The notes beneath the pieces are model-generated. The model had not been told where the DNA came from. It worked only from the letters and a program-made list of their open reading frames with translations, and made no database searches. Source: Streptomyces thermolilacinus SPC6 (GTDB lineage Bacteria > Actinomycetota > Actinomycetes > Streptomycetales > Streptomycetaceae). From it: a stretch of 64,000 nt of DNA. The DNA is taken from assembly GCF_000478605.2 (NCBI RefSeq), contig NZ_ASHX02000001.1, positions 5,285,001 to 5,349,000 on the forward strand, in the 5' to 3' direction. The position numbers were made by a program, and so were the translations under genes. Below, piece after piece: positions 25,019 through 45,766 of this stretch (position 1 is the first letter of the stretch; each line of letters starts with the position of its first letter).

Positions 25019-26050
25019 TCAGGAGGCCCGGCGGCGCGCCGCGCGGAACAGGAGCGCCGCGCCCCCGCCGAGGACGGCGACCCCGGTGGCGGCGAGGTAC
25101 AAGGTGGTGCCGTCGCCGCCGGTCGCCGCGAGGTTCGGCGCGGCCGGGGCGGCGCTCGCCCCGGTGCCCGCCCCGGTGCCGGGTGCCGGGCTCGAAGCCG
25201 CGCCGGCCAGCGGGGAGGGCCCGGCCCCGGCGCCCGGAGCGCCGCCGTCCGGGGCGGCCGGGGGCGTACCGTGCCCGTCGTCGTGGCCGCCGTCCCCGTG
25301 GCCGTCGTCGGGCCCGTCGCCGCCGTGGCCGGCGTGGTCGACGGTCGACTTGGCCGCGTCCTTCGCGATCTGCTGCTCGCTCGGCGCCGACGCGGCCGGG
25401 CCGCCCGTACCCGCGCCGCCGCCGAACACCACGTCGGAGCAGGTGTAGAACGCCTCGGGGGAGTCGGACCGCTGCCACACGGAGTAGATCAGATGGCGGC
25501 CGGACCGGGCCGGGACGGTGCCGTCGAACACGTACGAGCCGTTCACCAGCTTAGGGTCGGTGACCTTCGCGAACGGCTTGTCCTCCAGGTCCGCCCAGGT
25601 CAGCGGCTTCGCCGGGTCGTAGCCCGGCTTCGTGACGTACAGCTCGAACGTCCCGCGGTGCGGCGCCGTCGCCCGGTACCGGAAGGTGTGCGGGCCCGCG
25701 GTCATCGTGCTCGCCGGCCAGTCGGCGCGCGGCAGGTCGAGGCCCTTGTACTTGTCGCGGCCGGCGCCGCACAGCCTGCCGTCCGGGATGACCGACCGGT
25801 GCCGTCCCGCGGCGTCCGGGATGTTGACCTCGTTCCAGTCGTAGAACGCCTGGGTCCCGCTCGCGGCGACCGCCGCACGGCAGGCCGCCGAGTCGGGGCT
25901 CTCCGGACCCTCGGCGTGGCAGGCCGAGACGCGGCTGACGGGGTCGGTCATCGAGCCGTGCGCGGCGGCGGGCGAGGCGGTGGCACCGGCCAGGGCGAGC
26001 GGGACGACGGCGAGGGCGACGGCGGTGGCCGCGGTACGCGGAGTACTCAC
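25019..26050 (-). CDS. AA10 lytic polysaccharide monooxygenase with LAxTG sorting signal
   Basis: A 343-aa copper enzyme that oxidatively cuts chitin or cellulose. The signal peptide (1-30) is followed by HGSMTDP, so cleavage exposes the N-terminal His that forms half of the copper histidine brace; the second His is in TAPHRGTF. Residues near EAFYTC supply the axial Phe and a disulfide Cys. After the catalytic domain comes a linker with a His/Asp/Gly-rich run (about 225-250), a Pro/Ala-rich spacer, then LAATG, a membrane helix and an RRR tail: a class E sortase signal. The enzyme is therefore probably covalently attached to the cell wall. GTG start with AGGAG 8 nt upstream. Confidence 0.92.
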   Translation of the reverse strand: MSTPRTAATAVALAVVPLALAGATASPAAAHGSMTDPVSRVSACHAEGPESPDSAACRAAVAASGTQAFYDWNEVNIPDAAGRHRSVIPDGRLCGAGRDKYKGLDLPRADWPASTMTAGPHTFRYRATAPHRGTFELYVTKPGYDPAKPLTWADLEDKPFAKVTDPKLVNGSYVFDGTVPARSGRHLIYSVWQRSDSPEAFYTCSDVVFGGGAGTGGPAASAPSEQQIAKDAAKSTVDHAGHGGDGPDDGHGDGGHDDGHGTPPAAPDGGAPGAGAGPSPLAGAASSPAPGTGAGTGASAAPAAPNLAATGGDGTTLYLAATGVAVLGGGAALLFRAARRRAS

Positions 26051-44045: not shown

Positions 44046-44072
44046 CCGTTCGGCCGACGCACGGTCCCAACT

Positions 44073-44093
44073 CCGGCCTCGCCGGGCTTTTTT
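44073..44093 (+). terminator. Intrinsic terminator with T-run
   Basis: CCGGC-CTC-GCCGG is followed by GC and six T residues (44088-44093), right after the TetR gene. A T-run is unusual in this genome. Confidence 0.8.
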
Positions 44094-44256: not shown

Positions 44257-44892
44257 ATGACCGCAGCCCGACCACTCCTGCGCACCGCAGTCGCCGGACT
44301 CGCTCTCGGCGGCATCGCCTTCGCCGGCGCGCCGGCCGCCGTCGCCCAGCCCGGGGACAACGGCGACATCGCGATCCACGACACCGACACCCCGCCGCTC
44401 GACCAGCGCAGCGAGTCCAAGGTGTGCCGTTTCTACCTGGCCGCCTTCAACTTCGCGGGGCTGCAGCAGGTCACGTACACGATCACCCCGCAGCCGCTGC
44501 AGGCGGGCGACCCGACCGTGACGGGTGCCATCAACCTGGCGCCGACCGGCACCGGCCAGACCACCGAACTGACCCTGCCCGAGGGTCAGTACAGGCTGAC
44601 CTGGACGTTTCCCGGCGCCACCCTGCCGGGCAACCTGAAGGTCTTCCGCGTCGACTGCCCGAAGGGCCACGGCGACAAGAACAAGCACGGCGACAAGAAC
44701 AAGCAGGGCGACGGGGGCGCCCAAGGCCACAAGGGCCCGCACGGCGGCGTGGGCGCGGGCGGCGGCGGCATGGCGGCCCCGGCCGCCGACTCGTCCGCCG
44801 TCGGTGTCGGCGCGGCGCTCGCGGCCGGCCTGGCGGGTACCGCCGGGCTGATCCTCGCCCGCCGTCGCCGCCGCTCCCATGGCGCCGCGTAG
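44257..44892 (+). CDS. Predicted cell-surface protein paired with class F sortase
   Basis: A 211-aa secreted protein. A signal peptide ends near AVAQPG (about residue 30). The mature part is a beta-rich domain (YTITPQPLQAGDPTVTG, TTELTLPEGQYRLTWTF), then a Lys/His/Gly-rich linker with GDKNK repeats, a membrane helix and an RRRRR-like tail. No LPxTG or LAxTG motif is visible before the helix, although the layout is that of a sortase substrate. ACGGAGGAA precedes ATG 44257. The class F sortase gene overlaps its 3' end by 14 bp, so the two proteins almost certainly work together. Confidence 0.82.
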   Translation: MTAARPLLRTAVAGLALGGIAFAGAPAAVAQPGDNGDIAIHDTDTPPLDQRSESKVCRFYLAAFNFAGLQQVTYTITPQPLQAGDPTVTGAINLAPTGTGQTTELTLPEGQYRLTWTFPGATLPGNLKVFRVDCPKGHGDKNKHGDKNKQGDGGAQGHKGPHGGVGAGGGGMAAPAADSSAVGVGAALAAGLAGTAGLILARRRRRSHGAA

Positions 44893-45766
44893 ACCGTCGT
44901 ACTCACGGTTCACCCGTCGGCAACGCCGCCTCCTCCGCCTCACCAGGACGGTGGCCGCGGCGGTGGCGCTCGTCTCCGGCGGCGTCTGGTTGGCCGAGGA
45001 CGGCGAGCCGTCCGGGCCCGCCCCGGCAGCGGTGGCCGCGCCGCCGCAGCCGGGGCCCGCGACCACCCCGCCGCCCGTCACCGAGTCGAAGGCGGGGCAA
45101 CAGCCCGGCGGGCGGACCGAGCCCCGGACCGGCCCGCGGGCCGACCGGGGCACCGGGCAGGGTGCCGGACAGCAGCCGGGCGCCCGGGCGGGGCAAGGCG
45201 CGGGACAGCGGGCGGGACAGGGGGCCGGGCGACCGGCGGACCAGGCGCGGCCCAATGCGCCGAAGCCGTCGGCGGCGAAACGGCCACCCGCCGCCCTCGC
45301 CCCCTCACCGCCCAGGCAGATCGCCGTCCCGGCCATCACGATCGAGGCCCCGGTCGTGCGCCTGGGTCTCGAACCGTCGGGCCAGTTGCGCTCCCCGCCC
45401 GTGGAGAACCCCCACTTGACCGGCTGGTACGAGGACGGCGCCACGCCCGGCGAGAAGGGCACCGCGATCATGGTCGGCCACCGCGACACCCGCAAGGGCC
45501 CGGCCGTGTTCCTCAACCTCGACGCGCTCAAGCCCGGCAACACCGTCCGGGTCACCCGCGAGGACGGGATCACCGCGGTGTTCACCGTTCACCGCGTCAG
45601 CACCTTCGACAAGGAGAACTTCCCCGACAAGGAGGTGTACGGGCCTGCCAAGCGCCCCGAGCTGCGCCTGCTCACCTGCGGCGGGGCCTTCGACCGGAAG
45701 AAGGGGTACGAGGCCAACATCGTCGTCTTCGCCCACCTCACCGACACGATCCCGGCGAACGCGTGA
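44879..45766 (+). CDS. Class F sortase
   Basis: A 295-aa membrane-anchored transpeptidase. An Arg-rich start and one helix (about 22-42) anchor it; a long Gln/Gly/Pro/Arg-rich linker (about 50-145, with repeated GQGAG and GQRAG units) follows, then the sortase domain: catalytic His in VGHRDT, Cys in LLTCGGAFD and the Arg a few residues on (FDRKKGYE). Class F sortases of actinobacteria have no well-known substrate; the upstream surface protein is the obvious candidate. The start overlaps that gene, and a perfect hairpin terminator follows. Confidence 0.92.
   Translation: MAPRRPSYSRFTRRQRRLLRLTRTVAAAVALVSGGVWLAEDGEPSGPAPAAVAAPPQPGPATTPPPVTESKAGQQPGGRTEPRTGPRADRGTGQGAGQQPGARAGQGAGQRAGQGAGRPADQARPNAPKPSAAKRPPAALAPSPPRQIAVPAITIEAPVVRLGLEPSGQLRSPPVENPHLTGWYEDGATPGEKGTAIMVGHRDTRKGPAVFLNLDALKPGNTVRVTREDGITAVFTVHRVSTFDKENFPDKEVYGPAKRPELRLLTCGGAFDRKKGYEANIVVFAHLTDTIPANA

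Follow-up and report, generated by a model that had tools for sequence, protein, structure and literature searches.

An exported protein and a class F sortase are encoded by overlapping genes

The window analyzed here is a 64,000-nt stretch (C1:5285001-5349000) of the 6.4-Mb genome of the soil bacterium Streptomyces thermolilacinus SPC6, and the G+C content of the window is about 75%. The original prediction placed overlapping genes for a surface protein and a sortase within it, and both open reading frames (ORFs) are found there, sharing 14 nt (Table 1). We refer to their products as P0001 and P0002. The second of these is a class F sortase by the NCBIfam model NF033748, which it matched with 210.2 bits (211.9 bits in a search of the genome) against a cut-off of 166. 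The signal peptide, linker, C-terminal helix, and arginine tail that had been described for P0001 are likewise present.

TABLE 1 Features of the P0001/P0002 locus, in coordinates of the window
Feature	Position	Strand	Description or basis
Terminator-like hairpin 3' of the upstream TetR-type gene	44072..44086	+	Consensus scan
P0001 (211 aa plus stop), putative substrate of a class F sortase	44257..44892	+	ORF; exported, with ectodomain, linker, and C-terminal sorting signal
Signal peptide, residues 1-30	44257..44346	+	Sequence; predicted cut after AVA (PAAVA/QPG); orthologs alike
Ectodomain, residues 31-136	44347..44664	+	Alignment and profile searches; invariant Cys 57 and 134
Sorting signal PHGGVGAGGGG, residues 161-171	44737..44769	+	Core V165-x-A167-G168-x-G170-G171; predicted cleavage A167/G168
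C-terminal hydrophobic helix, residues ~182-201	44800..44859	+	Sequence and predicted model
Basic tail RRRRRSHGAA, residues 202-211	44860..44889	+	Sequence
P0001/P0002 overlap, 14 nt	44879..44892	+	Contains the start codon of P0002 and the stop codon of P0001; coupled translation likely
Class F sortase P0002, 295 aa plus stop	44879..45766	+	Membrane anchor at the N terminus, then a low-complexity linker; catalytic domain begins near residue 138
Catalytic His201	45479..45481	+	H in 133/133 distinct class F domains
Arg263 (Cys minus 4)	45665..45667	+	R in 131/133 distinct class F domains (1 V, 1 gap)
Catalytic Cys267	45677..45679	+	C in 132/133 distinct class F domains (1 gap)
Asn280, where the usual β8 catalytic Arg sits	45716..45718	+	Alignment of 133 class F domains

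The sequence GGAGG, which resembles a ribosome-binding site, precedes the ATG of P0001, and no such site is visible in the sequence ahead of the P0002 start. Among 40 orthologous pairs, 35 have a candidate sortase start at the same offset of -13 from the substrate stop. This fixed offset, together with the lack of a visible ribosome-binding site for P0002, makes translational coupling of the two genes likely. A consensus scan returned three terminator-like sites in the region, two of which are one hairpin in two registers, versus 0.8 expected. This hairpin lies between the pair and the upstream gene, which we take to be of the TetR type from a reading of its translation, so P0001 and P0002 may form their own transcript. 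A promoter scan and an Rfam search of the locus gave no result.

The linker of P0001 is rich in lysine and glycine, and, as originally noted, reading the sequence revealed no pentapeptide resembling LPxTG or LAxTG. The model TIGR01167 scored 12.1 bits, below its cut-off of 15.9, over residues 185 to 205, which are the helix and tail. The ectodomain is predicted to fold as an immunoglobulin (Ig)/FnIII-like β-sandwich with a conserved Cys pair. It had no Pfam match above the gathering score, and a sequence search of the PDB with it returned nothing convincing (weak matches to ribosomal L1, best E value 0.02). Fold matches reached a Z score of 8.4, which reflects the common Ig/FnIII arrangement, and we rejected them as a sign of kinship. 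Our guess is that P0001 would contribute to adhesion or to the properties of the hyphal surface.

P0002 has asparagine at the position of the β8 arginine

The predicted structure of P0002 (pLDDT 94.3) has the sortase fold. Its best 50 Foldseek matches were sortases of classes A, C, and E, with TM scores of up to 0.73 by query length, and no entry named as class F was among these 50. The original prediction had assigned a full His/Cys/Arg active site to the protein; His201 and Cys267 are indeed present, but the arginine site is occupied by Asn280. Across 133 distinct class F domains, the corresponding column contained Asn in 129, Ser in 3, and a gap in 1, and never Arg, with the column placed by a sequence alignment whose register past a conserved Tyr is ambiguous relative to class E. 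Replacement of the catalytic arginine by asparagine in actinobacterial class F enzymes is also described in the accessible text of an earlier report (PMC6998099). Unlike P0002, SrtE1 has the β8 arginine, according to the available portion of PMC5148588.

In the main subfamily, the arginine four residues before the catalytic cysteine may stand in for the β8 arginine. Inspection by eye of 20 divergent class F sequences made it less likely that this arginine is common to the whole class: the asparagine was present in all 20, and the arginine at Cys minus 4 in only 6. The absence of the β8 arginine is a point against the mechanism proposed below.

One class F-like sortase, at locus L224 (G073:C21:42500-47900), reads LRLITSTGAYD where the others have TCGG. 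Judging from these residues, its catalytic cysteine appears to be replaced by serine, and the enzyme is perhaps dead or altered.

A glycine-rich signal recurs beside class F sortases

A single-protein query for class F loci found no relatives, and an alignment was needed as the query. The best 80 of 582 relatives by class F sortase were taken, a set that leans toward close relatives; these 80 named loci comprise 79 from Streptomyces and 1 from Microtetraspora. Aligning the region ahead of the C-terminal helix in orthologous pairs, as the original prediction had suggested, brought out a conserved signal. Among 41 aligned substrates (P0001 and 40 orthologs), P161, G163, A167, G168, and G170 are invariant, and V165, G169, and G171 are conserved at 90% or more; the linker otherwise varies in length and sequence. 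Given the recurring start offset and a tail motif that stands out as conserved within a variable linker, the pairing of P0001 with P0002 goes beyond chance.

Candidate substrates were also chosen without the motif, by a signal-peptide-like start, a helix, and a basic tail. A neighbor of this description was present at 90 of 110 loci, and these were thinned to 47 non-redundant sequences. A Gibbs search recovered P-x-G-x-[V/P]-x-[A/T]-G-x-G-G or a near form in 44 of the 47, two of them being near forms (one with Gly at P1 and one with His replacing the first Gly). The V/P position also accepted residues such as Ala, and the last position residues such as Ser. The three misses (L100, L103, and L159) were wrongly picked frames, and L100 and L103 carry the signal in another frame. 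DNA as GC rich as this window might be expected to encode glycine-rich linkers by composition or chance alone; however, the signal scored 14.67 bits per sequence compared with 8.42 (standard deviation, 0.22) for 12 shuffles of the same composition, and the linker is unconserved elsewhere, so we give this explanation almost no credence.

With a regular expression, 75 of the 80 named loci proved to have the signal in a gene next to the sortase. Three of the five misses are at a contig edge, L126 has the variant GSLKTGVGG, and L106 has none. In loci drawn from across the class, the expression found the signal in 21 of 30. Near forms are present in three of the others (HGVDAGGGG in L153, GGVATGGGP in L149, and GGAQTGGGL in L142), L154 and L159 are close to a contig edge, and no signal was seen in the approximately 1 kb examined upstream of the sortases of L143, L144, L147, and L162. 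For L056, L059, L060, L117, and L152, the expression matched within the linker or in a shifted position, and all of these except L117 were corrected. A few pairs have Gly at P1 (GHVDGGDGG and GGVNGGLGG).

The substrate is upstream on the same strand in 120 of 124 sortase-substrate pairs. In L150, L152, and L155, from other genomes of the class, the class F sortase and its likely substrate are encoded on opposite strands, so an operon is not required for the pairing. The 124 substrates form 14 ectodomain clusters without mutual BLAST similarity at an E value of 1e-3 over at least 60 aligned residues, a criterion that allows for remoter kinship. Even 20 divergent class F loci, whose sortases scored 107 to 148 bits and so fall under the class cut-off, included 15 with a neighbor bearing VxAGxxG or a close form by eye. 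No LPxTG-flagged neighbor was found among these 20. Five were without the signal: L210, L216, L223, L224, and L228, the last of which is at a contig edge.

Anchor signals on a shared ectodomain track the adjacent sortase

Proteins with signals of the LAxTG or LPxTG type (class E/A type) can carry the ectodomain of P0001 as well. Homologs were found in 24 of 41 genomes (its own and 40 relatives), and 30 loci fetched from these genomes consisted of 16 with the glycine signal and 14 with an LAxTG-like or LPxTG signal. A class F sortase adjoins 14 of the 16 glycine-signal loci, the other two being at a contig end, versus none of the 14 LxxTG loci. A profile of residues 31 to 136 alone matched the 14 LxxTG-type proteins with E values from 2e-29 to 7e-39. 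Searching for the ectodomain across the class gave 29 positive genomes among 246. Of the 14 glycine-signal rows gained in this way, 13 have a class F sortase and the remaining one is at a contig end, whereas all 8 additional LxxTG rows kept in the tree lack such a sortase.

For loci found through the ectodomain only, every one of the 27 assessable glycine-signal rows has a class F sortase next to it, compared with 0 of 22 LAxTG/LPxTG rows; the 27 rows represent 25 genes and come from 30 rows, of which 3 are at a contig end, with the genes of the own genome and of G013 counted twice. When loci fetched through the sortase are included, in which adjacency is given by construction, the counts are 69 of 72 versus 0 of 22. 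Four genomes (G001, G007, G015, and G022) have one copy of each anchor type.

A tree of the ectodomain (94 rows, 88 different sequences) needs one to two changes of anchor. With so few changes, the swap is a clean contrast but nearly one event, and the independence of the signal association comes from the 14 unrelated ectodomain clusters. Left out of the tree were L080, whose ectodomain and tail are in different frames; L187 and L195, which had no anchor call; and the short matches L201 and L204 to L208, which are of the LPxTG type and have no adjacent class F sortase.

In outline, the GlyGly-CTERM domain that goes with rhombosortase is also a glycine-rich signal followed by a helix and a basic tail. 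By this analogy, a rhomboid-like or other intramembrane protease could process the tail of P0001 while the sortase is a bystander. The presence of a class F sortase beside all 27 assessable glycine-signal genes of the ectodomain-only set makes such a role for another protease very improbable.

P0001 might also be only a tail-anchored membrane protein, with the glycine run as a hinge and the sortase acting elsewhere. This would fit the finding, given in the accessible text of PMC13251363, that Actinoplanes missouriensis shows no visible phenotype when its four srtF genes are all deleted. It would not explain why the signal has fixed internal spacing, beyond mere glycine richness, on 14 BLAST-unrelated ectodomain clusters, why the same ectodomain carries LAxTG or LPxTG where a class F sortase is not adjacent, or why 35 of 40 pairs share the same candidate start overlap. 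We consider membrane anchoring alone to be quite unlikely.

The signal is related to a known domain and distinct from LAxTG

This kind of signal is already in NCBIfam release 20 by name, as the 'GVDTG sorting domain' (NF058571, GVDTG_CTERM), and what is new here is the variant with Ala, VxAGGGG. By our own description of NF058571, a signal is followed by a helix and then a basic tail at the C terminus of a protein encoded next to a class F sortase. P0001 fits this description, and model positions 2 to 44, of 44, align to its residues 161 to 204. The match, however, scored 19.2 bits against a cut-off of 29. When 10 orthologs of P0001 were scanned singly, 7 scored 16.1 to 21.5 bits and 3 were not listed. 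Among 41 substrates searched with the model, 32 reached an E value of 0.1 or lower; the best, 1.8e-5, probably corresponds to about 25 bits. From these sequence scores, the Ala variant seems not to be captured by NF058571.

Over 118 genomes of the class, NF058571 gave 79 hits at an E value of 0.001 or lower. Fifty-eight of these were within 2.5 kb of a class F sortase among the 150 class F matches listed, and 52 were upstream of a listed class F sortase on the same strand. Nearness to a listed sortase was seen for 31 of 33 hits above the cut-off and 27 of 46 below it, and 21 of the 79 were away from any listed class F sortase. By our estimate, the 2.5-kb flanks of approximately seven sortases make up some 0.5% of a genome of 8 Mb, for a chance expectation of less than one.

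The class E enzymes (SrtE), which use LAxTG on the Streptomyces chaplins and others, also act on Streptomyces surface proteins, even on ones that share the P0001 ectodomain. Since NGAP often comes directly after LAETG, the extended form LAxTGxGA is similar to the class F form VxTGxGG. The class E signal differs in having Leu at P4 and Ala at P3, where the class F signal has Gly and Val, and in having no adjacent class F sortase.

Within the window, an LAETG sorting domain is encoded at positions 25028-25135 on the minus strand (NF041528, 30.6 bits, cut-off 30), and its product is a probable class E sortase substrate. The genome as a whole has six LAETG-type domains over the cut-off, which presumably serve its class E enzymes.

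The SrtF of Cutibacterium acnes, called class F, is reported in the available text of PMC13257024 to use LPXTG; an LPQTG peptide was used with this enzyme in the accessible part of PMC7451113. 'Class F' is therefore not uniform. The class F enzyme might sort P0001 by cutting another bond, such as one inside GGGG, or might favor a form similar to LPxTG. Besides the C. acnes report, the glycine run offers several scissile bonds, and P1 is Gly in a few pairs. Nevertheless, A167 and G168 are invariant in the 41 orthologs, the [T/A]-G core is present in nearly all clusters, and none of the 20 divergent class F loci has an LPxTG-flagged neighbor. The C. acnes enzyme also differs from P0002 at the Cys site, where its C195G primer, as given in the accessible part of PMC7451113, reads AIVI-G-WDYVK and P0002 has ELRLLTCGG. 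A different scissile bond or an LPxTG preference thus seems rather unlikely.

At srtF1/AMIS_11010 and srtF4/AMIS_36440 of A. missouriensis, the neighbor has a signal peptide, a helix, and a basic tail, as P0001 does; in the available text of PMC13251363, no pentapeptide was recognized in these neighbors and the motif is not named. The substrate screen described there sought only LPxTG-like pentapeptides, and the srtF neighbors were therefore set aside. In their accessible parts, PMC13251363 and PMC6998099 describe what class F sortases do as unknown.

The statement in the original prediction that class F recognition is largely unknown needs to be narrowed, since NF058571 exists and LPXTG has been reported for C. 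acnes. It does apply to the glycine-rich signal, of which the literature searched, as far as its text was accessible, held no printed description; GVDTG occurred there only in unrelated papers. The suggestion that the pair could define a class F signal holds in the comparative sense that a conserved signal was found, and it goes too far in treating that signal as wholly unknown.

A proposed sorting code for class F

In the sortase pathway, a protein exported by Sec is retained in the membrane, the sortase cysteine attacks its signal, the helix is released, and the protein is transferred to a peptidoglycan precursor. We think it probable that P0002 recognizes P-x-G-x-V-x-A-G-x-G-G ahead of the helix, cleaves it, and anchors P0001 to the wall. 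P0001 would be exported by Sec and held in the membrane through its C-terminal helix and arginine tail, and P0002, probably co-translated, would read PHGGVGAGGGG just ahead of the helix. The predicted point of attack by Cys267, acting with His201, is the bond joining A167 to G168. P0001 would then be passed to a peptidoglycan precursor and be anchored, presumably covalently, leaving a small β-sandwich domain tethered to the wall by a flexible linker.

Mapped onto LPxTG, G164-V165-G166-A167/G168 would correspond to P4 to P1'. As read from sequence, the class F code would be V-x-[A/T]-G-x-x-G, in parallel with LPxTG and LAxTG, with Gly at P4, Val (or Pro) at P3, Ala or Thr at P1, and a glycine run past the cut. 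The chances appear about even that most actinobacterial class F enzymes are a separate sortase branch with this code, cutting after Ala or Thr and having lost the β8 arginine to asparagine. Such a branch would need neither the P3 Pro or Ala nor the P1 Thr of other sortases.

The residue after the catalytic His varies with the form of the signal. Of the 47 sortases paired with Thr signals, 41 have Val there, versus 0 of 68 with Ala signals, and the residue is Leu in 8 of 117 sortases, 7 of which are paired with Pro at P3; Arg follows the His for 4 of 11 Pro signals. Judged by these pairs, this residue may set sub-codes or specificity. Covariation between it and P1 was not significant, with two independent pairs, and the sub-codes follow clades.

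The gene pair is ordinary as such; what makes it useful is an answer on the signal that class F sortases read. An explicit signal with named variants lets the substrates of these enzymes be listed, makes class F cleavage testable, and allows one to ask whether the enzymes function when the usual arginine is missing. Cleavage of the Ala variant, if it occurs, would add motifs for enzymatic protein ligation.

Other class F loci in the source genome

The genome of S. thermolilacinus SPC6 has at least five class F matches over the cut-off, and four of these five have a signal-bearing neighbor by eye. The signals are HVKTGVGG, GVGAGGGG (P0001), GVRGGLGG with GTDGGLGG, and VRAGGGG; inspection by eye found none beside the class F locus L006. 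At L005 (C1:401730-405152), two possible substrates, with SGVRGGLGG and GTDGGLGG, are upstream of one sortase on opposite strands. The VRAGGGG at L007 (C1:4199219-4202650) is nearly 40 residues ahead of the helix, an unusual distance. L008 (C1:4343619-4346996) encodes a divergent sortase (47 bits to PF04203), and its neighbor has the signal VHAGNGG. This neighbor ends with HAVHAGNGGQVA, then the helix, then RIRRNDVR, and is apparently a further substrate of the glycine-signal type with a different ectodomain.
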